Shown piece by piece: positions 10,743 to 58,930 of a stretch of 64,000 nucleotides of DNA. The DNA is taken from contig NZ_CP085839.1 in assembly GCF_020715565.1 (NCBI RefSeq), positions 1,302,001-1,366,000 on the forward strand, given 5' to 3'. The position numbers and the translations under genes are program-made. Source of the DNA: Nocardioides sp. Kera G14. Lineage in GTDB: Bacteria; Actinomycetota; Actinomycetes; Propionibacteriales; Nocardioidaceae. The notes below the pieces were generated by a model. It ran no database searches and had not been told where the DNA came from. It was given only the letters and a program-made list of their open reading frames with translations. Each line of letters starts with the position of its first letter. Position 1 is the stretch's first letter.

Positions 10743-11734
10743 CGGACCTCGCTGAGGGCTCCGGCGTTCAGACGCGTGTGCGTGAGGTGGTCGACTGCAC
10801 CGAGGACGTCGTCCGTCGTGACACCGGTGAGGCGGGGGTCTCCGAGGAGGGCCGACGGCACGCCGTACGGCGTCCAGCGGCGGGGCGGCACGGTCGGTGC
10901 GACCAGCGAGACGACCGGCGTGCCGACGGCGGCCGCCAGGTGTCCGGCTGCGGTGTCGCCCGCGAGCACGACGTCCGCCTCCGCCATCACGCGCGCGAGA
11001 TCGGCGACGTCGGTGTGGCCACCGAGATCGCGTGCGGAGCCGTCGGCGATCCGGGCCGTGCTGCGCGCCTCGTCGGGACCACCCGTGACGACGACCTGGT
11101 GCCCCGCCTCGGAGAGCTCCTCGCGCAGTTGCCGGAACCGTGCCACCGGCCAGCCCTGCGCGTCGGAGTCCACGCCGGGATGCAGCACGACGAAGTTGCC
11201 CGGCGGCAACAGCTCGGGCCGTCGCGGCGGGAGCGTGAGCTCGGGCAGGTCGTCGGTGAGCTCACCGCCACAGGCGAGTGCCAGACGCAACGAGTCCTGG
11301 ACCTCGTGGAGGTCCGTGTCGTGCGTGAGGCAGAGGTCGAGCAGCCCCGCGGCGTCATCGGAGCTGATGCCGCCGACCCACGGGATGTCGGCCTGGCTGA
11401 GCACCAGGGTCGTCGGCAGTGACGACTGGTGGAGCGACGTGAAGATGACCGCCTCGTCGAAATGACGGAGGCGGAGCTCTGCGGGCAGTGAGCCGACCTC
11501 CGGGAAGGCGATCTGGGGGTAGGCACGGGTGATCGGTGGCGTGGGTGCGATCCAGGGCGCCTCCCACGTGATGACCTCGTCGACCGACGGCAGCAACTCG
11601 GCCGCGGCCCGCGCCGACGGGCTGCAGACCAGGGCGAGGTGATCACAGGTGGCGCGCAGCGCATGGAGGGCACGCGAGGTCAACAGCAGGTCCCCCATGC
11701 TGTCGAGGCGCACGGCCACGCGGCGTGTAGTCAT
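10739..11734 (-). CDS. Glycosyltransferase family 9 (heptosyltransferase-like), copy B1
   Basis: The 331-residue GT9 protein starts MTTRRVAVRLDSMGDLLLTS, continues with AVIFTSLHQSSLPTTLVLSQ in the N-terminal half and has FVVLHPGVDSDAQGWPVARF, VVVTGGPDEA and VVLAGDTAAGHLAAAVGTPV in the C-terminal half. It is a paralogue of the gene at 53738-54778, which shares VRLDSMGDxLL, AVIFTSxHQSxLPTxLVL and HLTAAVGTPVVSL. Thus the A/B pair found here is repeated in the heptose cluster 40 kb away. It is transcribed divergently from the peroxiredoxin gene. The sugar transferred is unknown; the shared ancestry suggests the same donor. Confidence 0.87.
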   Translation of the reverse strand: MTTRRVAVRLDSMGDLLLTSRALHALRATCDHLALVCSPSARAAAELLPSVDEVITWEAPWIAPTPPITRAYPQIAFPEVGSLPAELRLRHFDEAVIFTSLHQSSLPTTLVLSQADIPWVGGISSDDAAGLLDLCLTHDTDLHEVQDSLRLALACGGELTDDLPELTLPPRRPELLPPGNFVVLHPGVDSDAQGWPVARFRQLREELSEAGHQVVVTGGPDEARSTARIADGSARDLGGHTDVADLARVMAEADVVLAGDTAAGHLAAAVGTPVVSLVAPTVPPRRWTPYGVPSALLGDPRLTGVTTDDVLGAVDHLTHTRLNAGALSEVR

Positions 11735-40730: not shown

Positions 40731-42062
40731 TCAGGACATGAGGCCGAGGGTGGTGCGGGTGTAGTCGGAGCCGAAGAGGGCCGAGGGGGAGCGCCCGGGG
40801 AATCGCGAGGAGATGACGTCGGCGAGGACGTCGCGGTAGTCGGTGGTGACCTGGAGGTCGTCGTCCACCAGGCTGGAGCTCGGGGTGCTGAGCGTGGGCC
40901 ACGTGCCGTAGTACCGGCCGCCGCGGACGCCGGCGCCGAAGAGGAGCATCATGTTTCCCCAGCCGTGGTCGAGGCCGTGCGCGGAGTTCTCGGTGAGGCG
41001 GCGGCCGAACTCGCTGATCGTCACCACCGTGACGCGCTTGCGCTCGGTGCCGAGGTCGGTGAGGAACGCGTCGAGCGCGCTCGCGAGGGCGGTGAGGTTG
41101 CGGGCCATCCCACCTGAGGTGAGGGTGCCGTAGTCGGTGTGGAAGTCCCAGGAACCGTAGTCGAGTGCGACGGTCTCGACTCCGACGCCGGACTTGATCA
41201 GCTGGGCGGTGTCCTTGAGTGCCGCACCCAGGTCGGTCGCGGGCCAGGCGGTCGGATAGACGGCGCCGTTGGCCGGGGCGTACGTCGCCGTCGCGGTCGA
41301 GGTGAGGCGGCTGGTGATCGAGAGGGCGCTCGTCGCACCGGCGCGGAGCATGGTGGCCGTGCGGGCCGGCACGCTGCTGGGGATCGTGTTCCAGACGCTC
41401 CCGAGGGAGCTGCGGCGATGGGCCTGCCAGGTGGCGTCGTCGGACCCTGGCACGGCACCGGTGAGGGTGAGGTCGGCGAGCCTGTCAGCCGCGAGCGTGT
41501 CGACCGATCCGCTCGTCAGGGTGGGTGCCGTGGTCGAGCCGAGGAAGGTGGCCGAGAGCGGGTCGTCGGCGCTGCTGCCGAGCTCGACGAGACGGTTGAC
41601 CCAGCCCTGGCGCAGGGTCGAGGTCGGGTCGGCGTCCTCGATCGCCTCCATCGCGGAGAAGTGGCTGCGGTTGGGTCGGATCATGCCGGTGGCGGTCACG
41701 GCCGCGAACTCGCCGCTGGTCCAGTACTTGGCCAAGGGCGCGAGCGCGGGGTGCAGGCCGAACATCGAGTCGGCGCAGATCAGGTTGGCCTTGGGGATCG
41801 CGATGACCGGGCGTTTGGCGTAGTACGCCGGGTCGCCGTGCGGCACGACGACGCCCATGCCGTCGATCGCGCCGCGCAGCGAGAGGACGACGAGCACGTT
41901 GCCGGTGGCTGAGGGCGCGCCGGCGTAGGCGACGTTGCGCAGGGTGTCGCCGAAGACGGACGTGACCGCGGCGGCACCGGCGGTGAGGCCGGCCGCCGCG
42001 AGGAGACGGCGACGGCTCAGTACGAGGGTCGCCTCGTCGCAGCAGGAGTCGGGGTTCGTCAT
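40731..42062 (-). CDS. DUF1501 protein with Tat-type signal
   Basis: The 443-residue protein has an N-terminal twin-arginine-like signal (LSRRRLLAAAGLTAGAAAVT) and a DUF1501 body: LVVLSLRGAIDGMGVVVPHG, FGLHPALAPL, DYGSWDFHTDYGT, VTISEFGRRLTENSAHGLDH followed by G. DUF1501 belongs to the alkaline-phosphatase/sulfatase-like fold, and the Asp/His residues in these motifs could bind metal. It is almost always paired with DUF1800, here the upstream gene seven bases away. Function is unknown; an exported enzyme acting at the cell surface is likely. A possible DosR-like site lies upstream of the pair. Confidence 0.9.
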   Translation of the reverse strand: MTNPDSCCDEATLVLSRRRLLAAAGLTAGAAAVTSVFGDTLRNVAYAGAPSATGNVLVVLSLRGAIDGMGVVVPHGDPAYYAKRPVIAIPKANLICADSMFGLHPALAPLAKYWTSGEFAAVTATGMIRPNRSHFSAMEAIEDADPTSTLRQGWVNRLVELGSSADDPLSATFLGSTTAPTLTSGSVDTLAADRLADLTLTGAVPGSDDATWQAHRRSSLGSVWNTIPSSVPARTATMLRAGATSALSITSRLTSTATATYAPANGAVYPTAWPATDLGAALKDTAQLIKSGVGVETVALDYGSWDFHTDYGTLTSGGMARNLTALASALDAFLTDLGTERKRVTVVTISEFGRRLTENSAHGLDHGWGNMMLLFGAGVRGGRYYGTWPTLSTPSSSLVDDDLQVTTDYRDVLADVISSRFPGRSPSALFGSDYTRTTLGLMS

Positions 42063-42069
42063 CGGGGCC

Positions 42070-43839
42070 TCAGTAGGTCAGGTGGAGGGGGTGGTCCAAC
42101 AGGATGGACAGCGCACGGATGCCGAGCCAGTCGCTGAGTGCGGTGACCTGCCAGCTGCCGGGCTTGAGGACGGTGGTGGGGGTCATGCCGAGGGCCTCGG
42201 CGAAGGCGGACACCGTGGTGGCGTCGACGTCGCGGCCGAGCAGCTTCTGGGCGGCGAAGTGGGCGTAGCCGGCCACGGTGGTCGTGCCGTTGCTGAGGTC
42301 GGGCACGAAGTCGCCGGGATCGCGGTAGGTGATCCTCCCGGTGGGCCACCAGCCGCCGAGCAGGCAGGCGTGGGTGCGGAAGGTGGCGATCATCCGGCCG
42401 CCGGAGGTGTAGGCGTCGGCCGTGTCGGGGCGCCCGTCCGGCCGGGGCCAGCTGTACGGGATGCCGCCGGCGTATCCGTAGGCGAGGGTGTGGGCGGCGT
42501 CGTCGGATGCGGCCGGTGCCTGCACGGTGATGCCGAGCGCGCGCATGGTGGCGACGAAGTCACCCATCGGGGTGCGGACCTTGGCGTGCATCGAGGCGCT
42601 GAACTCGGGGTGGCGCACCAGAGCCCGAAGCACCGCCGACAGGTCGGTGTCGTTGGCCTGGTAGACGGCGGTCAGGTCCGCGATGAGGGCGGCGCTGGGG
42701 GAGTCGGAGACGAACCGTGTGGCGAGCTTGGTCATCAACCGACGGGCGGTGTTGGGGTGGCGCGCGAGGTGGGCGAGGAAGTCCTTCGCGGTCTGACCAC
42801 CCTGCCCCGAACCGTCGGAGGTGAAGCCCTGGACGGAGACCGCGGTCTTGTTGTGCCTGCTGTCGACGTACGTCGGGTCCCAGACCGGCGGGTTGGACCA
42901 GGCGTTGCAGGTCCAGCCCGAGAGCAGCTTGGCCGTGGCCTTGACGTCGGCCTCGCTGTAGAAGCCCACGCCGACGGTGTGGAGCTCGAGCAGCTCACGG
43001 GCCTGGTTCTCGTTGACCGCAGTGGCGGTCGAGGTGGCGGTGCCGAGATAGGTGAGCATCGCCCCGCTCAGGCTGGCCTTGGTGAGGAGGTCGCTGAACG
43101 AGCCGAGGGCGCCTGCGCGGATGATCGCGTCGTAGTCCTGCCGCCAGTACCAGCCGTCGGCGGTGACCGGGACATGCAGGTGGTCGGAGAGGAACTCCAC
43201 CATCGCCTCGAAGACCTGGCGCTTGCTGGTCAGGCGGCGCATCAGGGCCAGGTTGCCCAGGGCGAGGCCGTACTCCCAGCTGCCGGCCGACTGGGCCTGC
43301 TCGCTGGCCTTCCGCTCGGCCGGCGTGTCGGAGAGGAGGGTGTACCACGACGCGGCGGCGGTTGCGGCGCTCGACTCGGCGATCGCGGCCGGTGTGAGCT
43401 GCTGGTCGAACCACGCCAGTGACCCTCCGGCGGCGGTCATCTCGGCGGCCTGCGCGGCCGTCCAGCCGCCGGTGAAACGAGCGCACATGTGCGCGACGTC
43501 GACGCTTGTGGTCGCGGTGTCGGTCGCCATGTCGGTCGTCGTGGGGGCGGGAGTGGGGGTGGCCGGGACCGGCGTCGGAGTTGCCGGCGCCGGGGGCGTT
43601 GCCTGGGCGGCCTTCGTGGCTGCGGCCTTCGCCTGGGCCTTCGCCTTGGCCTTCGCCCTCGCCTTTGCTCGCTTCGCTGCGGCGCGGGCCTTCTTGCGTG
43701 CCTTCTTGCGCTTCTTCTTCGCCTTCGTGGCGGAGGCCGGCTCGGCAAGTCCCAGCCATGCGGCTGCGCCGGCAAGCGTCGGTACGCCCGCGCGCGACAG
43801 CACGCGTGCGAGGCCTCCCGAGATCGGTGTGTCCACCAT
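42070..43839 (-). CDS. DUF1800 protein with Lys/Ala-rich segment after the signal peptide
   Basis: The 589-residue protein has a probable signal peptide (hydrophobic stretch GVPTLAGAAAWLGL, AxA-type end PASA near residue 37). A stretch of about 45 residues follows that is almost only Lys, Ala and Arg (AKKKRKKARKKARAAAKRAK), then a Pro/Thr linker. The DUF1800 body comes after that: FLSDHLHVPV, NENQARELLELHTVGVG, LLSGWTCNAW, FLAHLARHPNTARRLMTKLA and VRTPMGDFVATMRALGI. DUF1800 is of unknown function and pairs with DUF1501. The basic stretch resembles the tail of the kinase at 29560-30789 and may bind anionic wall polymers or DNA (inference). Confidence 0.9.
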   Translation of the reverse strand: MVDTPISGGLARVLSRAGVPTLAGAAAWLGLAEPASATKAKKKRKKARKKARAAAKRAKARAKAKAKAQAKAAATKAAQATPPAPATPTPVPATPTPAPTTTDMATDTATTSVDVAHMCARFTGGWTAAQAAEMTAAGGSLAWFDQQLTPAAIAESSAATAAASWYTLLSDTPAERKASEQAQSAGSWEYGLALGNLALMRRLTSKRQVFEAMVEFLSDHLHVPVTADGWYWRQDYDAIIRAGALGSFSDLLTKASLSGAMLTYLGTATSTATAVNENQARELLELHTVGVGFYSEADVKATAKLLSGWTCNAWSNPPVWDPTYVDSRHNKTAVSVQGFTSDGSGQGGQTAKDFLAHLARHPNTARRLMTKLATRFVSDSPSAALIADLTAVYQANDTDLSAVLRALVRHPEFSASMHAKVRTPMGDFVATMRALGITVQAPAASDDAAHTLAYGYAGGIPYSWPRPDGRPDTADAYTSGGRMIATFRTHACLLGGWWPTGRITYRDPGDFVPDLSNGTTTVAGYAHFAAQKLLGRDVDATTVSAFAEALGMTPTTVLKPGSWQVTALSDWLGIRALSILLDHPLHLTY

Positions 43840-47903: not shown

Positions 47904-48662
47904 ATGAGCAGCACCACAGCAGAGCTCCAGGGTCGCGTAGCCCTCGTCACCGGCGGAGGCAGCGGCCTGGGCCGTGCGATCAGCCAGCTCTTCGCCGAGT
48001 CCGGCGCGCACGTGATCGTCGCCGACATCGACGCCTCGGGAGCGGAGCAGACGGTGAAGCTCATCGGCGACCTCCCCGACAAAAGCGGCACCGCAGAGGC
48101 GGTGGAGCTGGACATCACCGACCGTGCGGCGGTCGACCGTGTGATCGGCGAGGCGGCGGACCGGCACGGAGCCGCCTTCGACCTGCTCATCAACAACGCG
48201 GGCACGGACCGTGGTGCCGACCTGGTCGACATCGACGACGACCAGTGGCACGGCGTCTTCGGCGTCAACGTCGACGGCCCGATGTACCTCAGCCGCGCGT
48301 TCGTGCGCCACCGCAAGGAGGCCGCGCCGGACGGCCTGGCGGACATCGCCTGTGTCGTCTCGATCAGCGCCCTCACCGTCGGCGCAGGCGCGGGTGCCTA
48401 CAACGCCTCCAAGGCCGCGCTGCTCAAGCTGGTCGAGGTCATGCAGACCGAGGCGCGCGAGCGGGAGTGGCCGGTACGGGTCAGTGCGATCAACCCGGCC
48501 GCCATGGCCACTCCGATGATGGACCAATGGGGCCTGCCCGAGGAGCGGATGATGGACCCGACCGTCGTCGCCAGCCTGATCCGGTTCGCGATCACGCTGC
48601 CCCCGGAGGGCGTGCTCCAGAGCGCAGTCATCACGCTGCGCAACGAGAGCTATCCCCGATGA
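47904..48662 (+). CDS. Short-chain dehydrogenase/reductase
   Basis: The 252-residue classical SDR has LVTGGGSGLGRAISQLFAES, Asp at the end of beta-2 (VADIDASG, NAD preference), NNAGTDRG, catalytic Ser in SISAL and Tyr in YNASK. GAATG-type spacing puts its ATG one base after the preceding stop, and its stop overlaps the next gene (ATGA). The C-terminus ends NESYPR without a membrane anchor. The substrate is unknown. It may belong with the nucleotide-sugar epimerase gene that follows. Confidence 0.86.
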   Translation: MSSTTAELQGRVALVTGGGSGLGRAISQLFAESGAHVIVADIDASGAEQTVKLIGDLPDKSGTAEAVELDITDRAAVDRVIGEAADRHGAAFDLLINNAGTDRGADLVDIDDDQWHGVFGVNVDGPMYLSRAFVRHRKEAAPDGLADIACVVSISALTVGAGAGAYNASKAALLKLVEVMQTEAREREWPVRVSAINPAAMATPMMDQWGLPEERMMDPTVVASLIRFAITLPPEGVLQSAVITLRNESYPR

Positions 48663-49615
48663 GCGTCGACCTCGCCGGCGCGCGGGTGCTCGTCACCGGT
48701 GGCGCCGGATTCGTCGGGTCGTGGCTCTGCGAGCGGCTGCTCGACGAGGGCGCCACCGTCTGGGCGGTCGACTCCTTCATGACCGGATCGCCGGACAAGG
48801 TCGCCCATCTCGTCCGACGCCCCGGCTTCACGCTGGTGGAGGCCGATGTGAGCGAGACGATCCCGGACCCCGGGGGCGTCACCCATGTCATGCACCTCGC
48901 GTGTCCGGCCTCGCCGGTGCACTACCTCCGGCTCCCTCTCGAGACGCTGCGCGTCGCGAGCAACGGCACCGTGAATGCACTCGAGCTCGCTGAGCGGCAC
49001 GGCGCCCGGCTCGTGCTCGCCTCCACCTCGGAGGTGTACGGCGACCCGCTGGAGCACCCGCAGCGGGAGAGCTACTGGGGCAACGTCAATCCGATCGGGC
49101 CGCGCAGCGTCTACGACGAGGGGAAGCGGTTCGCCGAGGCCACGACCATGGCCTTCCACCGCGAGCGTGGCGTCGACGTCGGCATCGCGCGGATCTTCAA
49201 CACCTACGGACCCAGGATGAGCGTCGATGACGGCCGGGTCGTGCCGACCTTCCTCCACCAGGCACTGCAGGGCAAGCCACTCACGGTGGCCGGCGACGGC
49301 TCGCAGACCAGGTCGCTGTGCTGGGTCGAGGACACCGTCGACGGGCTCGTCCGGCTGGCCTGCTCGAACGAGGTCGGACCGGTCAACCTCGGCAACGACG
49401 CCGAGACCACCATGCTCGAGCTGGCCGAGACGGTCGTGCACCTCACCGGTTCGCGGTCGTCGATCGAGCACGTCGCGCTACCCCAGGACGACCCCAAGGT
49501 GCGGCGGCCCGACATCTCGCACGCCCGCCGCACGCTCGGCTGGGTGCCGACCATGACCGCCGAGGAGGGCCTCAAGCGGACGGTGCGATGGATGGAGGAG
49601 CTGCTCGCCGGCTGA
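48659..49615 (+). CDS. NAD-dependent nucleotide-sugar epimerase/decarboxylase (UXS-like)
   Basis: The 318-residue extended SDR has RVLVTGGAGFVGSWLCERLL, LACPASPVHYLRLPLETLRV, STSEVYGDPLEHPQRESYWG, catalytic YDEGK (in PIGPRSVYDEGKRFAEA) and ARIFNTYGPRM. The ACPASP and YDEGKR features are typical of UDP-glucuronate decarboxylase and close relatives. It converges on the heptose operon, overlapping its last gene by 44 bases. It may provide UDP-xylose or modify another sugar of the same glycan. The UXS-like call is good; its exact substrate is not certain. Confidence 0.85.
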   Translation: MSVDLAGARVLVTGGAGFVGSWLCERLLDEGATVWAVDSFMTGSPDKVAHLVRRPGFTLVEADVSETIPDPGGVTHVMHLACPASPVHYLRLPLETLRVASNGTVNALELAERHGARLVLASTSEVYGDPLEHPQRESYWGNVNPIGPRSVYDEGKRFAEATTMAFHRERGVDVGIARIFNTYGPRMSVDDGRVVPTFLHQALQGKPLTVAGDGSQTRSLCWVEDTVDGLVRLACSNEVGPVNLGNDAETTMLELAETVVHLTGSRSSIEHVALPQDDPKVRRPDISHARRTLGWVPTMTAEEGLKRTVRWMEELLAG

Positions 49616-50513
49616 GCTGCCGGGTCGCGGCGGCCAGTACCTCGTCGACCGTGATCTCCAGCAGGGCCGGATCGGGGTCCGTCGCGTGCGGGTCTCCGAC
49701 GCCGGTCCCGTGCCACAGCACCGTGTGCGGCCCCGGCGGCGGTCCCCAGCGTGAGGGCGGCGTCGGACCGAAGAGCAGGACCGACGGGATGCCGTACGCC
49801 GACGCCAGATGCGCCATGCCGGTGTCGCCTGCGACCACGAGTCGGGCCTCGGCGGTCAGCGCCGCGAGCTCGGCCAGGTCGGTCCGTCCGGCCAGCACCG
49901 CCTCGGCCGGAAGGCCGGCCTGTCGGCGTACCTCCTCGGCGAGGGGAGCCTCGTCGGGGGAGCCGGTGATCACCACCTGTTCGCCGCGAGACGCGAGCGC
50001 AGTGGCGACGGTGGCGAAGCGCTCCGCCGGCCAGCGACGGCTGCCGGAGGCGGCCCCCGGGTGCACGACGACGGTGTCGGGCGCAGGGGAGCCGACCGCC
50101 GGTGGGTCGAGCGCGACGTCGTCGGCATCGGCCTCGACCTCGAAGGCGGAGCCGATCAGGCGGCACCAGCGGACGCGTTCGTGCTCCTCCGGGTCCCACG
50201 TGGACAGGTCATAGCGCAGCAACAGACGCGGCAACAGCGCCTCGACCAGCGTGCGGCTCGCGGGGCCGTTGCCGTGCAGGTCGATCCCGACGTCCGGCGG
50301 CGGCCCGTCCCAGGCGACCGGCTCAAGCTCAGCCGTGGGGATCAGGCGGTCGACCGCATCGATCAGCTCGACCAACGGTCGCTGAGCCGCCGGCGCAGCA
50401 AGCACGATCTCGTGGTCGGGCAGGGCACGACGGAGCGCCCGCAGGGCGGGGACGCCGGTGAGGAGGTCACCGAGCCCGATCGCGCGGTAGACCAGCGCTC
50501 TCGGTCGGGTCAT
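49572..50513 (-). CDS. Glycosyltransferase family 9 (heptosyltransferase-like), copy A2, last gene of heptose operon
   Basis: The 313-residue GT9 protein starts MTRPRALVYRAIGLGDLLTG, continues with RALRRALPDHEIVLAAPAAQ, VGIDLHGNGPAS, then HPGAASGSRRWPAERFATVA, VVITGSPDEAPLAEEV and VVAGDTGMAHLASAYGIPSV. It is the paralogue of 9912-10742, but keeps a fuller C-terminal donor site (AGDTGMAHLA). It is coupled by ATGA to the HldE-like gene, so an ADP-heptose donor is the natural assumption. In Gram-negatives such enzymes add heptose to lipid A-Kdo; here the acceptor is unknown. Confidence 0.88.
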   Translation of the reverse strand: MTRPRALVYRAIGLGDLLTGVPALRALRRALPDHEIVLAAPAAQRPLVELIDAVDRLIPTAELEPVAWDGPPPDVGIDLHGNGPASRTLVEALLPRLLLRYDLSTWDPEEHERVRWCRLIGSAFEVEADADDVALDPPAVGSPAPDTVVVHPGAASGSRRWPAERFATVATALASRGEQVVITGSPDEAPLAEEVRRQAGLPAEAVLAGRTDLAELAALTAEARLVVAGDTGMAHLASAYGIPSVLLFGPTPPSRWGPPPGPHTVLWHGTGVGDPHATDPDPALLEITVDEVLAAATRQLSRRAAPPSIAPSA

Positions 50514-51895
50514 GCCTGGGTGCGCGCCGACTCGACGAGCCGTGTCGTCGAGCGGCCACTGAGGTACGGCAGCACGACGGCCTGCCCGCCCCATTCGCGC
50601 AGCAGCGCGGCCTCCGGCAGCTCGGCGCCGGCATAGTCACCGCCCTTCGCCCACACGTCGGGCCGCAGCTCGCGGATCGCCTCGACGGGAGTGTCCTCAT
50701 CGAAGACCACGACCTCGTCGACACACTCGAGCGCGGCCAGCACGCGGGCACGATCGTCCTGGGTCACCAGCGGCCGGGCCGATCCCTTGAGCCGGCGCAC
50801 GGAGTCGTCGGAGTTGAGGCAGACGACGAGGCAGTCGCCGAGTGCCCGGGCCGCCTCCAGGGTGGCGATGTGGCCGGCATGGACAAGGTCGAAGCAACCG
50901 CCGGTCGCGACCACGGTCCCGCCGGCGGCGCGCACCCGCTCGACCACGCCCGGCCCCCCGGCGTCCGGTCTCGCCAAGCCGTACGCCGCCGCGCCGCCTG
51001 CTGCGACGAAGGCCGCGGCGGCCGTCACCGCCTGGTGCACGGCCTCGAGCGTGACGGCGCCACCGGCCATGGCGGCGAGCACGGCGGTCGCGAACCGGTC
51101 ACCGGCCCCGCACGTGTCTACCGCATCCACGACGGGTGCCGGGATGATCGACGGCGAGGGCTCACCGCGGCTGAGTAGCGCGCCCTTCGCGCCGAGTGTC
51201 ACGCAGACCGCGTGGGCCTGCCAGTGCTCGACGAGGGTGGCGGCCTGCTCGCTCGCGACGGCGAGCTCCGTCCGTGGCCGCCGTGACGGGCCGGTGGGCT
51301 CAGGAGCGCGAGCGACACCGGCCGCGAAGCCGGTCGCCTCGTCCCGGTTGGGCGTCACCAGTCGGACTCCCTCGACGGGTTCGGCGCCGCGCGGATGCGG
51401 GTCCCATACGACCGGCGCGCGCACAGCGCCGAGCGCGTCGCGCAGCTCAGGCACCGACGTCACACCGTTGCCGTAGTCGGCCACGAGCACACCGTCCGCC
51501 TCGGCGATCGCCTCCAGGGCGGCGTGGGTCACCGGGCCGATGACGCCCGGCCTGCCCTCGTCGAGGCGCAGCAGCGACTGGGCGGCAGCGCGGACGCGAC
51601 GTTTGATCGGGGTACTTCCGCTGTGGTGCAACGCCACGACGCGGACGCCGGCCTGCTCGAGCAGCGCGGTCAACCGGCCGCTGCCCTCGTCCCCGGCGAC
51701 CGCGGTCACCAGGGTGACGTCGTGCCCGTCGGCGGCGAGGAGTGCGGCGGCGAGGCCCGCCCCGCCGGGGCGCGGCCGCTCCTCGAGCTCATCCAGGACG
51801 GGTGCGGGGGCGTCCGGCATCAGGCGTCCGGCGCGACCGATGAGGTCGATGTCGAGCAGCGAGTCCCCGACCACCACGAGGCGCTGAGGGGTCAC
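50510..51895 (-). CDS. hldE: Bifunctional heptose 7-phosphate kinase / heptose 1-phosphate adenylyltransferase (HldE-like)
   Basis: The 461-residue protein fuses a PfkB-type kinase domain with a nucleotidyltransferase domain, as in HldE. The kinase has VVVGDSLLDIDLIGRAGRLM, PGGAGLAAALLAADGHDVTL, VVWDPHPRG, VTPNRDEATGFAAGV and catalytic DTCGAGDRFATA. The nucleotidyltransferase starts near residue 325, with ATGGCFDLVHAGHIATLEAA (H-x-G-H), LNSDDSVRRLKG and PVEAIRELRPDVWAKGGDY. The GTG start overlaps the gmhA stop (GTGA). It would phosphorylate heptose 7-phosphate at C1 and, after dephosphorylation, transfer a nucleotide. Adenylyl donor is assumed from the family; a guanylyl variant (HddC type) has a different fold. 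Confidence 0.92.
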   Translation of the reverse strand: MTPQRLVVVGDSLLDIDLIGRAGRLMPDAPAPVLDELEERPRPGGAGLAAALLAADGHDVTLVTAVAGDEGSGRLTALLEQAGVRVVALHHSGSTPIKRRVRAAAQSLLRLDEGRPGVIGPVTHAALEAIAEADGVLVADYGNGVTSVPELRDALGAVRAPVVWDPHPRGAEPVEGVRLVTPNRDEATGFAAGVARAPEPTGPSRRPRTELAVASEQAATLVEHWQAHAVCVTLGAKGALLSRGEPSPSIIPAPVVDAVDTCGAGDRFATAVLAAMAGGAVTLEAVHQAVTAAAAFVAAGGAAAYGLARPDAGGPGVVERVRAAGGTVVATGGCFDLVHAGHIATLEAARALGDCLVVCLNSDDSVRRLKGSARPLVTQDDRARVLAALECVDEVVVFDEDTPVEAIRELRPDVWAKGGDYAGAELPEAALLREWGGQAVVLPYLSGRSTTRLVESARTQA

Positions 51896-52521
51896 GACGC
51901 CGCCTCGATGTCCTCGGCCGAGCGGCGGGTCCGCGACACGCCGACACCCAGCGTGCGGTCCACGGCGGCACAGAGGATGTGGAGACCGACGAGGTGCAGC
52001 TCCTGCACCGTGGCGGTGTAGGGGGCATCGACCGCGCAGTACTCGGTCGCGTGCTCGGCGAGCGGGTTGGGCAGCGGGCCGGTCATCGCCCACACCTCGA
52101 GGCCGGCCTTCCTGCCCCGGGCCGCGGCCGCGACCATGTTCTCCGACCGGCCGCTCGTGGACATCAGAACCAGGACATCACCCGGACGCCCGTGCGCCTC
52201 GACCTGCCGGGCGAAGAGCTCTGTTGGCGGGTAGTCGTTGATGATCGCCGTGAGACTCGACGTCTCCGAGGTCAGGCAGATGGCCGAGTAGGGCGCCCGG
52301 TCCTCGCGATAGCGGCCCACCAGCTCGGCGGTCAGGTGCTGGGCCTGCGCGGCACTCCCGCCGTTGCCGGCCGCGAGCAGGCGGCCCCCGCCCTCGAGGA
52401 CGGAGGTCAGCCGTACCCCCCAGTCGTCGAGTACGTCGACACACCGGCCGAACCTGTCCAAGGCTCGGGAGAGCTCGGCGAGGTGCTCGTGGTCGCACGG
52501 TGTGTGCAGCGGGCGGGTCAT
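51892..52521 (-). CDS. gmhA: Phosphoheptose isomerase (GmhA-like, SIS domain)
   Basis: GmhA turns sedoheptulose 7-phosphate into D-glycero-D-manno-heptose 7-phosphate, the entry to all nucleotide-activated manno-heptoses. The 209-residue protein is the usual length and has LLAAGNGGSAAQAQHLTAEL followed by VGRY, the SIS signatures AIINDYPPTELFARQV, LVLMSTSGRSENMVAAAARG and the C-terminal catalytic region ATVQELHLVGLHILCAAVDR. It overlaps neighbours on both sides by four bases. With hldE and the gmhB-like domain it completes a pathway, so a true heptose role is likely rather than another SIS function. Confidence 0.92.
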   Translation of the reverse strand: MTRPLHTPCDHEHLAELSRALDRFGRCVDVLDDWGVRLTSVLEGGGRLLAAGNGGSAAQAQHLTAELVGRYREDRAPYSAICLTSETSSLTAIINDYPPTELFARQVEAHGRPGDVLVLMSTSGRSENMVAAAARGRKAGLEVWAMTGPLPNPLAEHATEYCAVDAPYTATVQELHLVGLHILCAAVDRTLGVGVSRTRRSAEDIEAAS

Positions 52522-53741
52522 CGGACTGCCTCCTTCGTCGGGGCGACGCGGCTTGCGACCACGTCCTCGTAGATCTCTTCGGTGCGGGCCACGACGTTCC
52601 TCCAGTCGTAGAGCGCGATGGCACGCTCACGACCCGCCTCGCCGTAGCGGCGGCACCGCTCCGGGTCGGCCAGGAGGCTGCCCAAGACCTCGGCGAGCTC
52701 CTCCGGCTCGCGCGGCGGCACCAGTTCACCGGTGGTTCCGGGGACGACGGTGTCGAGGAGGCCGCCGACGGCGGAGCCGACGACCGGCCGGCCGCAGGCC
52801 ATCGCCTCGAGCGGCACGATCCCGAACGGCTCGTACCAGGGCACGGTGACGACGACGTCCCCACTGCGCATCAGGGCAGGCACGTCGTCCCGCGCCACGC
52901 TGCCCACGAAGCGCACGCGGTCGCCGACGCCGAGCCGCTCCGCGAGGGACTGCAGGCGCTTGGCCTCGGGGTCGGCGACCGCGGTGACACCCGAGGAGCC
53001 GCCGGCCACGACGAGCTCGACGTCGCAGCCGCGCCGCACCAGCCGGGCCAGTGCCTCGATGACGTTGCCGACGCCCTTCCGGGTCACGAGCCGGCCGACG
53101 GAGACGAGCCGCTGGCGCCCCTCCGGGTCGAGCCGGGGGCCCGGTCGGAAGAGCTCGGTGTCCACGCCACAGGGGACGATGTCGGCTCGGCAGGGCGGCA
53201 GGCCGAGCGCCCGCAGTTCCGCGACCTCGTCGCTGCAGGTCGCGATCACCCGGTCGACCTCCCGGCACAGCCGCTCCTCCAGCCTGATCCGCGAGGGCGG
53301 GCTGGTGTCGAGGCGGCCCTGGTGGCGTCGCTTGACCGAGCCGAGTGCATGGAAGGTCTGGAGGAGTGGGATGTCCGTCCCGCGCACGCCGAGGCGGGAG
53401 GCGAGGCCGCTCATCCAGAAGTGGGCGTGCACGATGTCGGGGCGCTCCCTCGTCCACTCCTCCCGCAGCCGCATCCCGAACTCCGTCATGTGCGGCAGGA
53501 GCTCGTCCTTCGGCACGTCGGTCGGTGGGCCGGCGGGGACGTGGTGGACGACGTACCCCTCCGGTGCGCGCACCCGGTCGGGAAGGGTCACCGAGTCGCG
53601 CCGGGTGTGCACCACGACCTCGTGGCCGCGCGCGGCCAGGCCACCGGCGAGGGCCGCGACATGCACGTTCTGCCCGCCGGCGTCCGCCCCGCCCAGTGCG
53701 GCGAGAGGGTTGGCGTGCTCGGAGACGAGCGAGATTCTCAT
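52518..53741 (-). CDS. Glycosyltransferase family 4
   Basis: The 407-residue GT-B enzyme begins MRISLVSEHANPLAALGGAD and AGGQNVHVAALAGGLAARGH, which matches the N-terminus of sucrose-synthase/MshA-like GT4 proteins. The donor half has VSVGRLVTRKGVGNVIEALA, FVGSVARDDVPALMRSGDVV, VPWYEPFGIVPLEAMACGRP (the E-x7-E motif) and GTTGELVPP. The ATG at 53741 overlaps the previous gene (ATGA); the longer frame upstream is not conserved. It probably adds one sugar of the heptose-containing glycan. Donor and linkage cannot be read. Confidence 0.9.
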   Translation of the reverse strand: MRISLVSEHANPLAALGGADAGGQNVHVAALAGGLAARGHEVVVHTRRDSVTLPDRVRAPEGYVVHHVPAGPPTDVPKDELLPHMTEFGMRLREEWTRERPDIVHAHFWMSGLASRLGVRGTDIPLLQTFHALGSVKRRHQGRLDTSPPSRIRLEERLCREVDRVIATCSDEVAELRALGLPPCRADIVPCGVDTELFRPGPRLDPEGRQRLVSVGRLVTRKGVGNVIEALARLVRRGCDVELVVAGGSSGVTAVADPEAKRLQSLAERLGVGDRVRFVGSVARDDVPALMRSGDVVVTVPWYEPFGIVPLEAMACGRPVVGSAVGGLLDTVVPGTTGELVPPREPEELAEVLGSLLADPERCRRYGEAGRERAIALYDWRNVVARTEEIYEDVVASRVAPTKEAVR

Positions 53742-54778
53742 GAGGCGCTCCTGGTGCTCAGGGTGATCAGTCGGTCCGGGAGCCCGCAGAGATGGACGAC
53801 GGCATCGATGACGTCGCGCGGTTGGACCGAGCTGAGACAGGGGTGGCCGGGCACGGGGCAGGTGAGCGCGCGCGTGTCCCGGCAGGGCGCGGCCTGGTCG
53901 CCGAGGAGCACCCGGTCGACGCCGTACGGCGCCCACCGGACGGCCGGCACCGTCGGTGAGTAGAGGGAGACCACGGGAGTGCCGACCGCGGCAGTGAGGT
54001 GGGCCGGGCCGGTGTTGCCGACGACCACCGCTTCTGCGCGGTCGAGCACCCCGGCGAGCTCCTCGAGGTCGAGCAGCCCACCGAGGTCACGGCCCTCCTC
54101 GCCGGCGACGTACGCCGTCAGCTCCTGCTCCGAGCGACCACCGGTCACGACCACACCGAAGCCGGCCTCGACCAGGCCTGAGCAGGCCGCGCGGAAGTGC
54201 CCGGCCGGCCAGGCGCGGGCCGGTGCCGACGTACCGGGGTGGAGGACTACATAGGGGCGGGGGAGGGATTCGGGCGGTCGGATCCGCTCGGGCCGCACCG
54301 CGAGTCGGCCGTCGTCGCCCGCGGGCAGCGCTCCGCCGCAGGCGGTCGCGAGCGAGAGCGCCCGCTCGGGTTCCGGGAGGTCATCGTCGATGCGGTGCCG
54401 GAGGTCGAGGAGGGAGCCCGGGTAGTCGACGCTGATCGCACCGATCCACGACACGCCGGCGAGGCGCAGCACGAGCGCGGTCGGCAGGGGCGACTGGTGG
54501 AAGCTGGTGAAGATCACCGCGCGGTCGTAGCCGCCGTCGGCGATCGTGGCCCGAAGCCCCTCCACGGAGGAGGGGTCGACGGGCGGGGGATCGGCCAGCA
54601 CCCATGGCGCCGACCAGCAGAGGACGTCGTCGACGCCGGGCAGCAGCGCGGCCGCGGTCCGGCCTAGCGGACCGCAGAGCAGGGTGACGTGGTCGCTGGT
54701 CGCGGCCAGCGCACGGAGGGCCGGCCCCGCGAGGAGGACGTCACCCATGCTGTCGAGGCGTACGGCGAGCGTCCTCAC
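53738..54778 (-). CDS. Glycosyltransferase family 9 (heptosyltransferase-like), copy B2
   Basis: The 346-residue GT9 protein begins with GTG (VRTLAVRLDSMGDVLLAGPA) in a GTGA overlap with the upstream fusion gene. It has AVIFTSFHQSPLPTALVLRL, YVVLHPGTSAPARAWPAGHF, GVVVTGGRSEQELTAYVAGE and VVVGNTGPAHLTAAVGTPVV. A cysteine-bearing loop near the C-terminus (APCRDTRALTCPVPGHPCLS) resembles the segment seen in ADP-heptose:LPS heptosyltransferases and is absent from the paralogue at 10739-11734. That difference suggests this copy is the one with a canonical acceptor/donor site. Confidence 0.88.
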   Translation of the reverse strand: MRTLAVRLDSMGDVLLAGPALRALAATSDHVTLLCGPLGRTAAALLPGVDDVLCWSAPWVLADPPPVDPSSVEGLRATIADGGYDRAVIFTSFHQSPLPTALVLRLAGVSWIGAISVDYPGSLLDLRHRIDDDLPEPERALSLATACGGALPAGDDGRLAVRPERIRPPESLPRPYVVLHPGTSAPARAWPAGHFRAACSGLVEAGFGVVVTGGRSEQELTAYVAGEEGRDLGGLLDLEELAGVLDRAEAVVVGNTGPAHLTAAVGTPVVSLYSPTVPAVRWAPYGVDRVLLGDQAAPCRDTRALTCPVPGHPCLSSVQPRDVIDAVVHLCGLPDRLITLSTRSAS

Positions 54779-56274
54779 CGCGCGCCTCTCAGGACGTCCT
54801 CCACGACGTCGGCGAGTGAGGCGGCGGCACGGGGCGCGCCGGCGATCTCCTCGGGGCGCGTGACCGGGGTCGGCACGAGGACGGCGTCGACCCCGGCGGC
54901 TTCAGCAGCCTCGAGGTCGGCACCGATGTCACCGATCATGAGGGCCCGGTCGGGCGCGACCCCGGCGTCGGCGAGCGCCTGCTTGATCATGCCGGGCGCC
55001 GGCTTGCGGCACTCGCAGCCGTCGTCCGGCCCGTGCGGACACGTGTAGACCGCCTCGAACGGCCCAAGGAGTTCGGCGACGCGGGCGTTGACCGCGTCCA
55101 CCTGATCCGGCGTGATGAGGCCCCGGGCGACGCCGGACTGGTTGCTCACGACGGCCAGCCGGATGCCCTCGCGGCGGAGCCGGTCGAGCGCCTCGCGGGC
55201 GCCCGGCATGGGCCGCACCTCGGCCGGGTCGCCGTTGTAGGGGACGTCCTCGACGAGTGTCCCGTCGCGGTCGAGGAGGACGAGCTCGGGAAGTCCGTGC
55301 CACGGCCCGGCGCCGCGGTGACGCAGCGCGCCGAGCGCCGAATGCCACGTGGCGGCGAAGGGGATCGCGGCGCTGGTCAGCAGCATCCGGCGTACCTCGG
55401 CGCGATCGCGAGGACCGGGTGCGATCCGGCGCCAGGCGAACTCGCCGGTGCCGCCCAGCCAGCCGAGTGCTCCGACTGCCGCGACCGCCGGACGGCGGGT
55501 GACGAGACCGGCCACGGCCACGGCCGCGGCACCGGTGAGGGCGACGTGCGTCCACCGGCGCCCGACCGGTGCGGCCGCCCGCCGCTGCCAGCCCGGTCCG
55601 TGCACGGCCCGCATGAGGTAGTCGTCGGCGTTGCCCTTCTGCTGCCGGAGGCTGGCGAGGTCATCGGCCGGGCGCACGGGATGGGTGACGTGACGGCGTC
55701 CGGTGACCACGCGACCCTGCTCGGCGCCCAGCCGCATCGCCAAGTCGGCGTCCTCGCGGAAGGCACGCGGGAAGCGCTCGTCGAAACCGCCGACGCGGGA
55801 CAGCTCCTCACGCCGGAAGCTCATGTCCGCCGTGATCCACTGCGACGTCTCGAGCCCGGCGGTGCCGCGCTCCCAGTCGGTCGGCCGTCGGTCGGTCGGG
55901 AGCGGAACCGTGAGGAGACCCTCGGACCCGGAGACGTCATGGCCCTCGACGGCTGCGAGGTCCTCCGCCAGCCGCTCGTACCAGTCGTCGTCGGGCAGCA
56001 CGTCGTCGTCGAGGAACGAGACCCACGGCGTGCGGCTGTGACGCCAGCCGATGTTGCGCGCACGCGCGGGGCCGCCACCACCGCTGCGCACGACGGTGAC
56101 GTCGAGGTCGTACGGCGTCACCTCGATCGGCGTCGCGCCCGGATCCGGTCGGTCGTCGACGAGGATGACCGGAGCGTCGACGGGCCGCGTCTGGCGGGCG
56201 AGGGAGTCGAGGAGGACGTGCAGGCTCGCGCGGCCCATCGTGGGCACGACGATGGTCGTGTGCGGCGTGCTCAT
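54775..56274 (-). CDS. Fusion of family 2 glycosyltransferase and GmhB-like heptose bisphosphate phosphatase
   Basis: The 499-residue protein has an N-terminal GT2 domain (about residues 1-225: TTIVVPTMGRASLHVLLDSL, VILVDDRPDP, GPARARNIGW, SFLDDDVLPDDDWYERL, ADMSFRREELSRVGGFDERF, then PRAFREDADLAMRLG). A hydrophobic middle with two or three membrane-like segments (about 250-310) follows. The C-terminal HAD-IIIA phosphatase domain is like GmhB: VLLDRDGTLVEDVPYNGDP, VVSNQSGVARG, the zinc motif C-P-H-G ... C-E-C, RKPAPGM and MIGDIGADLEAAEAAG. GmhB removes the C7 phosphate between the two HldE reactions. It overlaps neighbours by four bases on both sides. Confidence 0.9.
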   Translation of the reverse strand: MSTPHTTIVVPTMGRASLHVLLDSLARQTRPVDAPVILVDDRPDPGATPIEVTPYDLDVTVVRSGGGGPARARNIGWRHSRTPWVSFLDDDVLPDDDWYERLAEDLAAVEGHDVSGSEGLLTVPLPTDRRPTDWERGTAGLETSQWITADMSFRREELSRVGGFDERFPRAFREDADLAMRLGAEQGRVVTGRRHVTHPVRPADDLASLRQQKGNADDYLMRAVHGPGWQRRAAAPVGRRWTHVALTGAAAVAVAGLVTRRPAVAAVGALGWLGGTGEFAWRRIAPGPRDRAEVRRMLLTSAAIPFAATWHSALGALRHRGAGPWHGLPELVLLDRDGTLVEDVPYNGDPAEVRPMPGAREALDRLRREGIRLAVVSNQSGVARGLITPDQVDAVNARVAELLGPFEAVYTCPHGPDDGCECRKPAPGMIKQALADAGVAPDRALMIGDIGADLEAAEAAGVDAVLVPTPVTRPEEIAGAPRAAASLADVVEDVLRGAR

Positions 56275-57917
56275 CGACTCCTCCGCACGACGAAGGGGCC
56301 GATGGCGAGCAGTGAGACGGGCGCGGAGCCGAAGCACTCGAGCGCGTCGCGCGGGTCGTCCACCATGGGGCGGCCGGCGGTGTTCAGGCTGGTGTTGACG
56401 ACGACCGGGATCCCGCTGCGCGCCTCGAACTCGGTGAGCATCCGCGCGACCAGCGGCTCCTGCTCCGGGTCCACGGTCTGCACGCGCGCGGTCCCGTCGA
56501 CGTGCACGACGGCCGGGATGCGGTCGCGCCAGTCGGGGTGCACGTCGTGGACGAAGAGCATGTACGGCGACGGGATCGGTCCGCGGGAGAAGATGTCGCG
56601 GGCTCGGTCGAGCAACACCATCGGCGCCACCGGCCGGAACTGCTCGCGTCCCTTGACGTCGTTGAGTCGTTCGAGGTTCTCCCGGCGGCCCGGGTGTGCG
56701 AGCAGGGAGCGGTGGCCCAGGGCCCGCGGACCGAACTCGCTGCGCCCCTGGAACCACGCGACGACACCGTCGGCAGCCAGGCACTCGGCGACCTCGACCG
56801 CGACGTCGTCCGGTCGCTCGTAGGCCACCTGGGCGGTCCGGAGCCAGCTCTCGATCTCGTCGTCGCTCCAGCCGCGTCCGAGGTCGGCGCCGGTCATCGG
56901 CGTGAGGGCGTCACCGGCCTCGGCGGCCACGTGGAGAGCGCTGCCGAGTGAGGTGCCGGAGTCGCCGGCGGCGGGCTGCACCCACACGTCGTCGTACCCG
57001 CTCTGTTCCAGAATCACGGAGTTGGCCACGCAGTTGAGGGCGACGCCGCCCGCGAGGGTCAGGTGCCGGCTCCCGGTGCGGGCGCGGAGTCCACGGGCGA
57101 GGTCGACCAGCACCTCCTCGAGCCGCTTCTGCACGCTCGCCGCGAGGGCGGCGTGGTCCTCGGTCCACTCCTCGCCGGAGTCCAGACGCTTCGCGAAGGA
57201 CTGCCAGTCGATGCGCTCGGTCACGAAACCGCCCTCGTCGGTGGCTCGGATCCGCTCACGAAGCTGGTCGAGGAAGCGTGGCTCGCCGTACGACGCCATC
57301 GCCATGACCTTGTACTCGTCGCTCGACCGCAGGAACCCGAGGTGCTCGGTGAGGTCCTCGTAGAGCAGGCCGAGGGAGTGCGGCAGCTCCTGGGTGTAGT
57401 GGGTGGTCAGCCGACCGTCCCCGGAATAGGTGCCCGACAGGTGGCTGGCGCACTCACCGCGGCCGTCCAGGACGAGCACATCCGTGGCCTCGCCAGAGCC
57501 CACCCACGGCGCCGCGAGCGCGCTCGAGGCGGCGTGCGCGACGTGGTGCGGCACGAAGCGGACCTGCTCGGGGTCGAGCCCGGGCAGTGCGGTCGCGAGG
57601 AAGCCGGGCGCCTCGCGGGCATAGGTCTGGCGCAGGTGGTCCCACGGGTCGAAGAGGCCGAGCTCCTCGGCCGGCCGCGCGAGGCCCACGTCGAAGGAGT
57701 AGGTGACGGCGTCGAGCTGTCCGACGTCGAGACCCGCCTCCGCCAGGCACCAGCGCGCAGAGAGCTCGGGAAGCTCCCAGGCGGCGAACGGCACGGGCCG
57801 GTGCCCGTGCTTGCGGCGCGAGAAGCGCTCCTCCTCGGCGGCAGCGACGGTCCTCCCGTCCACCACGAGGGCGGCGCTGGGGTCGTGGAAGAGCGCGTTG
57901 ACGCCGAGGATCTTCAT
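56271..57917 (-). CDS. O-carbamoyltransferase, NodU/CmcH family
   Basis: The 548-residue protein has the two-domain structure of the family: an N-terminal Kae1-like ATPase/carbamoyladenylate domain (MKILGVNALFHDPSAALVVD, FVPHHVAHAASSALAAPW, VLVLDGRGE, LTLAGGVALNCVANSVI) and a YrdC-like C-terminal domain (VVAWFQGRSEFGPRALGHRS, REQFRPVAPMVLLD, VNTSLNTAGRPMVDDPRDAL). These enzymes move a carbamoyl group from carbamoyl phosphate to a sugar hydroxyl. In Pseudomonas LPS core (WapO) the target is a heptose. It is the first gene of the seven-gene heptose operon. Confidence 0.93.
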   Translation of the reverse strand: MKILGVNALFHDPSAALVVDGRTVAAAEEERFSRRKHGHRPVPFAAWELPELSARWCLAEAGLDVGQLDAVTYSFDVGLARPAEELGLFDPWDHLRQTYAREAPGFLATALPGLDPEQVRFVPHHVAHAASSALAAPWVGSGEATDVLVLDGRGECASHLSGTYSGDGRLTTHYTQELPHSLGLLYEDLTEHLGFLRSSDEYKVMAMASYGEPRFLDQLRERIRATDEGGFVTERIDWQSFAKRLDSGEEWTEDHAALAASVQKRLEEVLVDLARGLRARTGSRHLTLAGGVALNCVANSVILEQSGYDDVWVQPAAGDSGTSLGSALHVAAEAGDALTPMTGADLGRGWSDDEIESWLRTAQVAYERPDDVAVEVAECLAADGVVAWFQGRSEFGPRALGHRSLLAHPGRRENLERLNDVKGREQFRPVAPMVLLDRARDIFSRGPIPSPYMLFVHDVHPDWRDRIPAVVHVDGTARVQTVDPEQEPLVARMLTEFEARSGIPVVVNTSLNTAGRPMVDDPRDALECFGSAPVSLLAIGPFVVRRSR

Positions 57918-57937
57918 GGGTAGAGCCGTGCCCGGTG

Positions 57938-57949
57938 AGAAGCGCTTCT
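57938..57949. promoter_or_regulatory. Perfect 12-bp palindrome in the divergent promoter region of the heptose cluster
   Basis: AGAAGCGCTTCT is its own reverse complement and lies 21 bases upstream of the carbamoyltransferase start, in the 62-base space shared with the divergent glycosyltransferase. It is a good candidate operator for coordinated control of both units. Confidence 0.45.
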
Positions 57950-57953
57950 AAAC

Positions 57954-57978
57954 ATCGCCCGAATGGGCACAGGGCGAT
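57954..57978 (+). promoter_or_regulatory. Hairpin covering the ribosome site of the GT4 gene at 57980
   Basis: ATCGCCC (57954-57960) and GGGCGAT (57972-57978) form a perfect 7-bp stem with an 11-base loop. The right arm contains AGGGCG, the likely ribosome binding site for the ATG at 57980, so translation may be gated. The role is inferred. Confidence 0.4.
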
Positions 57979-57979
57979 C

Positions 57980-58930
57980 ATGCGGATCCTGCTGTGGCAC
58001 GTGCACGGTTCCTGGACCACGTCGTTCGTCCAGGGACGCCATGACTATCTCCTTCCTGTGACCCCCGATCGGGGCCCCGACGGCCTGGGCCGCGCGCGGA
58101 CGTGGGACTGGCCGACGAGCGTGCGCGAGGTGCCTTCGGAGGAGCTCGCGAGCGAGCCGGTCGACCTCGTCGTCCTGCAGCGGCCGCACGAGCTCGAGCT
58201 CGCCGCCCGGTGGCTGGGGCGGCGTCCCGGTGAGGACGTGCCGGCGGTGTACGTCGAGCACAACACGCCCATGGGTGACGTGCCCGACACCCGGCACCCC
58301 CTGGCCGACCAGCGTGCGATCCCGATCGCCCACGTGACCGGCTTCAACGACCTGATGTGGGACGCCGGGGAGGCACGGACGGTCGTGATCGACCACGGCA
58401 TCGTCGATCCCGGCCTCCGCTACACCGGCGAGTTGGACCATGCCGCGGTCGTCGTCAACGACCCGGTCCGGCGCGGACGCTCCGTCGGTGCGGACCTCGT
58501 GCCGGTCCTCGCCGACGCTGTGCCGGTGGACCTCTTCGGGATGCGGGTCGACCAGATGCCGCAGCAGGCCGGCCTGACGACGTACGAGGATCTGCCGCAG
58601 GAGCAGATGCACTCCGAGCTGGCCCGACGACGGGTCTACGCCCACCTCAGCCGCTGGACCTCACTCGGCCTCTCCCTGCTGGAGGCGATGCACCTCGGCA
58701 TGCCCGTCGTGGCGATGGCGGCGACCGAGGCGCCGCGGGCCGTCGTGCCAGGCACGGGTGAGCTGGTCACCAGCCCAGCCGCCCTGGTCGAGGCCGTACG
58801 TCGACTTGTCGATGATCCGGAGAGGGCCACCGAGACCGGGCGGGCCGCGCGACAGCACGTGCTCGAGCGCTACGGACTCAAGCGCTTCCTCGACGACTGG
58901 GACGCGGTCCTGGAGGAGGCAGCACGATGA
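57980..58930 (+). CDS. Glycosyltransferase (GT4-like), divergent from the heptose operon
   Basis: The 316-residue protein begins MRILLWHVHGSWTTSFVQGR HDYLLPV and has a GT-B donor half: AHLSRWTSLGLSLLEAMHLG followed by MPVVAMAATEAPRAV, GTGELVTSPAALVEAVRRLV and a C-terminal helix (YGLKRFLDDWDAVLEEAA). The acceptor half is shorter than in typical GT4 enzymes. The ATG at 57980 is chosen over an upstream ATG at 57935 because AGGGCG precedes it and the family start aligns. It overlaps the FAD/Rieske gene by ATGA. It is probably part of the same glycan system, expressed from the opposite strand. Confidence 0.82.
   Translation: MRILLWHVHGSWTTSFVQGRHDYLLPVTPDRGPDGLGRARTWDWPTSVREVPSEELASEPVDLVVLQRPHELELAARWLGRRPGEDVPAVYVEHNTPMGDVPDTRHPLADQRAIPIAHVTGFNDLMWDAGEARTVVIDHGIVDPGLRYTGELDHAAVVVNDPVRRGRSVGADLVPVLADAVPVDLFGMRVDQMPQQAGLTTYEDLPQEQMHSELARRRVYAHLSRWTSLGLSLLEAMHLGMPVVAMAATEAPRAVVPGTGELVTSPAALVEAVRRLVDDPERATETGRAARQHVLERYGLKRFLDDWDAVLEEAAR

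Follow-up and report, generated by a model that had tools for sequence, protein, structure and literature searches.

Positions 48659-58930 of the 64,000-nucleotide stretch of Nocardioides sp. Kera G14 analysed here (contig NZ_CP085839.1; hereafter the window) hold nine genes for heptose synthesis, glycosyl transfer, O-carbamoylation and a UDP-xylose synthase (UXS)-like protein. We regard these genes, with a probability of about 0.78, as the version of the actinobacterial cwg operon found in Nocardioides, which would direct the synthesis of a short envelope glycan. The cwg-type module in Nocardioides is real and well conserved, and it belongs to a kind that is known but chemically uncharacterised; its product is predicted to be a surface sugar chain bearing heptose and carbamoyl groups. 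The cwg ("cell wall glycan") operon of Streptomyces coelicolor, SCO6179-6190 or cwgA-L, is part of the sigma-E/CseBC regulon (PMC6767563) and is reported to be induced by vancomycin; its description in Streptomyces goes back to Hong et al. (2002, cited in PMC6767563). In the cwg literature covered here, its product goes no further than a predicted cell wall glycan. The present comparison puts forward D,D-heptose, xylose and carbamate as the probable building blocks of this product, finds the gene set in many actinobacterial families, separates core from optional genes and makes the chemistry testable.

Layout and extent of the module

The initial annotation of this DNA had described seven minus-strand genes joined by four-base overlaps, and all seven are present at 49572-57917, where the six junctions are exact 4-base overlaps with the starts chosen. 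Families were assigned with Pfam and NCBIfam, which agreed with those named earlier, and the nearest solved proteins were found by sequence search against the PDB. The nine genes, with their cwg counterparts and glycosyltransferase (GT) families, are as follows.

48659..49615, plus strand: UDP-glucuronate decarboxylase/UDP-xylose synthase-like short-chain dehydrogenase/reductase (SDR), cwgA homologue by order (UXS1 match)
49572..50513, minus strand: GT9b, predicted heptosyltransferase, cwgJ homologue by order (PF01075, 95.9 bits)
50510..51895, minus strand: HldE, heptose-7-phosphate kinase plus heptose-1-phosphate nucleotidyltransferase, cwgI homologue (TIGR02199; GTG start)
51892..52521, minus strand: GmhA, sedoheptulose-7-phosphate isomerase, cwgH homologue (TIGR00441; phosphoheptose isomerases in the PDB)
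52518..53741, minus strand: GT4 of the MshA/sucrose-phosphate-synthase type, cwgG homologue by order (PF00534/PF13439; PDB 6kih, 3c4q)
53738..54778, minus strand: GT9a, predicted heptosyltransferase, cwgE homologue by order
54775..56274, minus strand: GT2 fused to HAD-IIIA of the GmhB type, cwgC-cwgD homologue by order (PF00535 plus HAD matches)
56271..57917, minus strand: NodU/CmcH/TobZ-type O-carbamoyltransferase, cwgB homologue by order (PF16861 plus PF02543)
57980..58930, plus strand: divergent GT4, cwgF homologue by order (PF00534, 51.7 bits; synteny), most likely starting at the ATG at 57980

The GmhB-like phosphatase domain annotated earlier was recovered as a HAD match, but it is the C-terminal half of a fusion whose GT2 half had been overlooked; GT2 spans residues of about 1-230 and the heptose-1,7-bisphosphate phosphatase domain about 330-499. 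The fusion ties heptose synthesis to glycan assembly. The linker between the two halves has a hydrophobicity of 1.48 in the window and of at least 1.6 in 28 of 62 relatives, which is borderline for membrane anchoring of the GT2 domain. The proposed O-carbamoyltransferase is of the TobZ/GdmN type by its PDB matches, which include both of these proteins and are led by 7xb6 (E 9e-88).

The UXS-like gene and the divergent GT4 gene belong to the module. Bounds of 49572..58930 had been proposed, which take in the seven genes and the divergent GT4 but leave most of the UXS-like gene, convergent with the operon, outside. When the gene set was searched for in relatives, as the initial annotation had advised, each of the 10 same-genus regions fetched contained all nine genes, two of the regions stopping within the UXS-like gene at a contig end; the display of these regions hides weaker overlapping matches. 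Six flanking genes of the window, searched for in the same regions, gave a single weak match elsewhere (27%, L138).

Relation to the Streptomyces cwg operon

The comparison with SCO6179-6190 ran through the published promoter sequence and the SCO labels rather than through the SCO proteins. The 29-base cwg promoter, with up to two mismatches, occurred in 7 of 392 genomes of a genus taken to be Streptomyces, among them an exact match in G748, and six of the seven promoter regions were examined (G656 being left out). The best DNA matches of five regions to named Streptomyces loci were 76-77% over 2.7 kb, and that of the sixth, L164, was 75% over 1.1 kb. In five of the six, homologues of UXS, carbamoyltransferase, GT2, HAD, GT9a, divergent GT4, GT4, GmhA, HldE and GT9b follow in this order, the first homologue match starting 213-258 bases from the first base of the promoter; in L163, GT9a and HldE each match in two pieces, and in L164 the homologues were limited to GT2, GT4 and a part of HAD. 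Two further GT2 genes, cwgK and cwgL by order, lie after GT9b in L162, giving twelve genes in total.

Because the same ten activities follow the published cwg promoter, the window module reads as the cwg operon without its two terminal GT2 genes. All ten cwgA-J activities are encoded in the window, and the seven operon genes keep the cwg order. Between the promoter-bearing regions and the window, the carbamoyltransferase at the same place is 72-74% identical and the other homologues are 48-64% identical. The window differs in that the UXS-like gene and one GT4 gene flank the operon on the opposite strand, and in that GT2 and HAD are fused, whereas the promoter-bearing regions encode them separately. 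Neither of the terminal GT2 genes follows GT9b in the window, where the convergent UXS-like gene comes next (the rest of the genome was not searched for them), and no cwg-like sigma-E promoter was seen when the 62-base intergenic region between the divergent genes was read by eye. Considering the published labels, phosphoheptose isomerase for SCO6186 and bifunctional synthase/transferase for SCO6187 fit the module, and "dehydratase" for SCO6182 has no obvious fit (PMC5839063). The surface-glycan role that had been suggested from the DNA alone is supported by the homology to this sigma-E-controlled operon. Among the titles and abstract openings listed by searches of open-licence literature, heptose is not reported in the cwg product or in actinomycete walls; "heptose" as the start of a word is absent from the available parts of the cwg papers, one of which uses "phosphoheptose isomerase" for SCO6186.

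Heptose enzymes and their catalytic residues

Of the heptose models, only TIGR02199 (rfaE_dom_II) passed its curated cut-off, giving 188.8 bits against 181.5 with the HldE transferase domain. GmhA (TIGR00441, 144.5 bits against 209.45), the HAD half (PRK08942, 125.6 bits against 178), the HldE kinase domain (rfaE_dom_I), full-length HldE and the heptosyltransferase equivalogs of lipopolysaccharide (LPS) synthesis all fell below theirs, as might be expected since these models are built mostly on Gram-negative proteins. In the PDB, GmhA matched phosphoheptose isomerases (best E 1e-32) and the HAD half matched heptose-bisphosphate phosphatases (4pnh, E 9e-24). The N-terminal domain of HldE matched 4e84, a heptose 7-phosphate kinase, and its C-terminal domain matched 5x9q, a "putative cytidylyltransferase".

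Residues were compared by alignment to the E. coli K-12 proteins, using only homologues that cover most of the query, at positions which we take to be catalytic in GmhA, HldE and HAD. In the GmhA family, all 67 homologues retain the residues of E. coli S55, E65, Q172 and H180, while D169 gives way mostly to Ala. The GAGD aspartate of HldE is kept in 81 of 82 homologues and the HxGH histidines in all 82. In the HAD part, D11 (45/45), D13 (44/45), the three zinc cysteines (45/45) and the zinc histidine (44/45) are likewise conserved. Taken together with the gene content, these residues support the claim of a complete heptose synthesis set, in which a full route from sedoheptulose 7-phosphate to nucleotide-activated D,D-heptose would be encoded.

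The C-terminal motif of the window HldE is YLSGRSTT, which contains GRSTT of the STTR5 type. Among the 82 homologues, 62 carry GRST (60 with Tyr first and 2 with Leu first), 11 GHST and one GYST, and 8 do not match the pattern, at least two of which read GRSST. An Arg in the STTR5-type motif is reported to distinguish nucleotidyltransferases able to form CDP- and UDP-heptose as well (PMC11461863, PMC11573728), but the motif reported for those enzymes begins with F or L, whereas the HldE homologues here mostly begin with Tyr. The window HldE shares the GRSTT motif with the actinobacterial synthetases reported by Tang et al.; those systems are one tridomain protein, whereas here the isomerase and the kinase/transferase are encoded by two genes that overlap by 4 bases. 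In two Pyrinomonadaceae metagenome-assembled genomes (MAGs; L087 and L088), a GmhA match flanked by two HldE segments lies in line with them over about 2 kb, an arrangement as expected of a tridomain synthetase of nucleoside diphosphate (NDP)-heptoses outside actinobacteria.

With respect to the ADP-heptose 6-epimerase HldD, the Kera G14 genome gave eight SDR matches, none above the cut-off. The UXS-like gene was considered as a heptose epimerase and rejected, its best match being UDP-xylose synthase and its score with TIGR02197 just 62.2 bits. The enzyme families, most of the compared catalytic residues and the GT9a fold are shared with the Gram-negative ADP-heptose and LPS core system (GmhA-HldE-GmhB-HldD and WaaC/F/Q). 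Unlike that system, the genome shows no HldD over the cut-off and no LpxC, and its GT9 enzymes are distant from WaaC/F/Q. The absence of LPS, which the initial annotation had assumed for this host, is supported because LpxC is missing from the genome (3.47 Mb, one contig) while 4 of 14 control genomes gave matches.

Glycosyltransferases and the UDP-xylose synthase-like enzyme

The two GT9 enzymes proposed earlier are present, both with PF01075, and the predicted structure of GT9a has the GT9/heptosyltransferase fold, with WaaF and WaaC as its closest folds. In the main local alignments, the identity of the GT9 enzymes with E. coli WaaC/F/Q is about 23-33%, and with the LPS heptosyltransferase equivalogs their best scores are 66 bits (GT9a) and 89.5 bits (GT9b) against cut-offs of at least 134.6. 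In GT9b, all 40 homologues have Asp at the D13 and D261 positions and either E or D at the E222 position. GT9a carries Arg at the K192 position and Asn at the D261 position. A second GT9 pair, missed in the initial annotation, lies in the window at 9912-11734 (minus strand), its members adjacent with a 4-base overlap. These are diverged paralogues of GT9a (47% identity) and GT9b (52%); the GT9b-like member reads GDPDVAQ where GT9b has GDTGMAH, and may have lost its activity. A GT9a-like member outside the operon was found only in Kera G14 among the 118 genus genomes searched.

The UXS-like protein matched UXS1 (PDB 4gll) with 335 bits over residues 7-312, including the STSEVY and YDEGK motifs. 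A supply of UDP-glucuronate is possible because the genome itself encodes a UDP-glucose 6-dehydrogenase, which scores 594 bits against a solved one.

Conservation, distribution and descent

In nine more distant regions, the core of HAD, GT9a, GT4, GmhA, HldE and GT9b is complete in all nine, and the carbamoyltransferase is present in seven. With the 10 same-genus regions, this recurrence shows that the arrangement is not fortuitous. Across 77 loci of at least 15.9 kb we found HldE in 76, GmhA in 75, GT4 in 74, the divergent GT4 in 62, GT2 in 59, the carbamoyltransferase and GT9a in 56 each, HAD in 54, UXS in 49 and GT9b in 39, where the loci include some cut by contig ends and some duplicates (L019, L092 and L132 are one genome, and L020 and L093 one contig), so that these counts are not counts of independent species. 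Relatives came from a motif scan with HldE, and close homologues are over-represented among them. Fusion of GT2 with HAD is seen in 26 loci, and a separate GT2 occurs in 36 and a separate HAD in 30. Most relatives outside Nocardioides that carry the divergent GT4 place it inside the operon, with GT9a and GT4 on either side.

At E 1e-40, 12 of 118 genomes of the genus carried HldE of the operon type, as did 48 of 396 across the phylum, a figure that counts partial and more distant matches; at E 1e-100 the phylum figure was 25 of 396. GmhA adjoins HldE in 23 of the 24 non-window genomes at E 1e-100, and in the remaining one HldE lies on a short contig. Heptose genes in a Gram-positive bacterium had at first been presented as an anomaly. 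That view does not hold, given HldE in 25-48 of 396 Actinomycetota genomes by threshold and the published actinobacterial NDP-heptose synthetases, septacidin and cwg. Tang et al. reportedly surveyed the NDP-heptose synthetases of actinobacteria in 2022 and 2024.

GT9a-type genes occur at E 1e-30 in 11 of 118 genus genomes, all HldE-positive; the contrast of 11/12 HldE-positive with 0/106 HldE-negative genomes in a Fisher test reflects operon linkage as much as function. UXS-like SDR genes are more widespread, with 24 of 118 genomes at E 1e-40, of which 11 are among the 12 HldE-positive genomes and 13 are not. The HldE-positive genome below this threshold, G004, has a contig that ends inside the gene. 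An eleventh HldE-positive genus genome, G030, is represented by a short contig with HldE, GT9b and UXS. In the HldE tree, the genus copies and two MAG sequences (Nocardioidaceae and Dermatophilaceae) form one clade with a support of 0.985, the 14 genus tips including two pairs from the same genome or contig. This single clade favours inheritance within the lineage, accompanied by losses or local transfer, over numerous independent imports.

Proposed pathway and alternative explanations

Gene content, catalytic residues, conservation, the GT9a fold and the identity of gene order with cwg could be established by computation, and from them we infer the substrates, the sugar order, the acceptor, the export and the function of the module. 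GmhA would convert sedoheptulose 7-phosphate to D,D-heptose 7-phosphate, which the HldE kinase domain would phosphorylate to the 1,7-bisphosphate. The HAD half of the fusion would then strip the 7-phosphate to leave the 1-phosphate, and the HldE transferase domain would form ADP-D,D-heptose and, judging from the STTR5 motif, perhaps CDP- or UDP-heptose too. The sugar would stay in the D-glycero-D-manno form, since no C6 epimerase was recognised. In parallel, the UXS-like enzyme would convert UDP-glucuronate, derived through the chromosomal UDP-glucose dehydrogenase, to UDP-xylose. The GT9 pair would add heptose, GT2 and the two GT4 enzymes would add other sugars, perhaps including xylose, and the carbamoyltransferase would cap the chain by O-carbamoylation. 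Because the module proteins include no polymerase, flippase or transporter, we favour a short oligosaccharide, linked to a lipid or attached to an existing polymer, over a long polymer. If this is true, a sizeable share of actinobacteria would make NDP-heptoses for envelope use. NDP-heptoses are known immune agonists from Gram-negative bacteria.

In the bleomycin cluster, an RfaE-like enzyme occurs together with a GT9 and a carbamoyltransferase, and the same kinds of enzyme might here build carbamoylated mannose or a similar hexose, as in bleomycin-type glycosides. Bleomycin does bear 3-O-carbamoyl-D-mannose (PMC8787198). Such a hexose route seems unlikely, however, because the operon also encodes a complete GmhA, with four active-site residues kept throughout its family, and a GmhB-type phosphatase, and because the HldE transferase domain scores above a heptose-specific cut-off. 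A heptose made here could also end up in a secreted small molecule or glycoside rather than in the envelope. Streptomyces makes septacidin from NDP-heptose (PMC11461863, PMC10948575), and the septacidin pathway, like that of hygromycin B, derives a heptose from sedoheptulose 7-phosphate in an actinobacterium, as here (PMC11461863). In those pathways the heptose serves a natural product, whereas here it stands in a glycan operon with several glycosyltransferases. Among the 35 distinct window frames scanned with Pfam, which are not every gene of the window, there is no nonribosomal peptide synthetase or polyketide synthase scaffold gene; the same core recurs across many actinobacterial families, and the S. 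coelicolor operon is part of a cell-envelope stress regulon. We therefore consider a secreted product improbable.

Each of these two alternatives has an observation in its favour: the GmhA and GmhB models score below their cut-offs, which speaks for a hexose, and the operon is patchy within the genus, which speaks for a secreted product. The use of NDP-heptose for protein O-heptosylation of the Aah/TibC kind finds little support and appears highly improbable. An anti-phage defence role was also considered and dropped, as PADLOC gave no match among the nine module proteins. The cwg-type envelope glycan remains the explanation that we prefer.

Neighbouring and intergenic features

Two further features adjoin or lie within the module.

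47904..48662, plus strand: SDR oxidoreductase (Pfam adh_short), optional neighbour outside the cwg order
57938..57949: perfect 12-base palindrome AGAAGCGCTTCT, possible operator, in the 62-base intergenic region between the divergent genes

The SDR gene ends in a 4-base overlap with the start of the UXS-like gene. It was present in 6 of 10 genus regions, adjoining the module in 5, and in 7 of the 77 loci, which is too rare for a core part, so it was classed as optional. An adh_short gene (e.g. L142:11350-12063) stands between HldE and GT9b in many non-Nocardioides operons.

The palindrome AGAAGCGCTTCT resembles LacI-family operators. Among 13 corresponding intergenic regions compared, three of which were covered in part, the full AGAAGCGCTTCT occurs only in that of the window, so an exactly shared operator was rejected. 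The AAGCGCTT core of the palindrome is found in 5 of the 13, counting that of the window, and close to it a CAAAC-like string recurs. Elsewhere in the window, adjacent DUF1501 and DUF1800 genes lie at 40731-43839; the two families are usual partners of unknown function.

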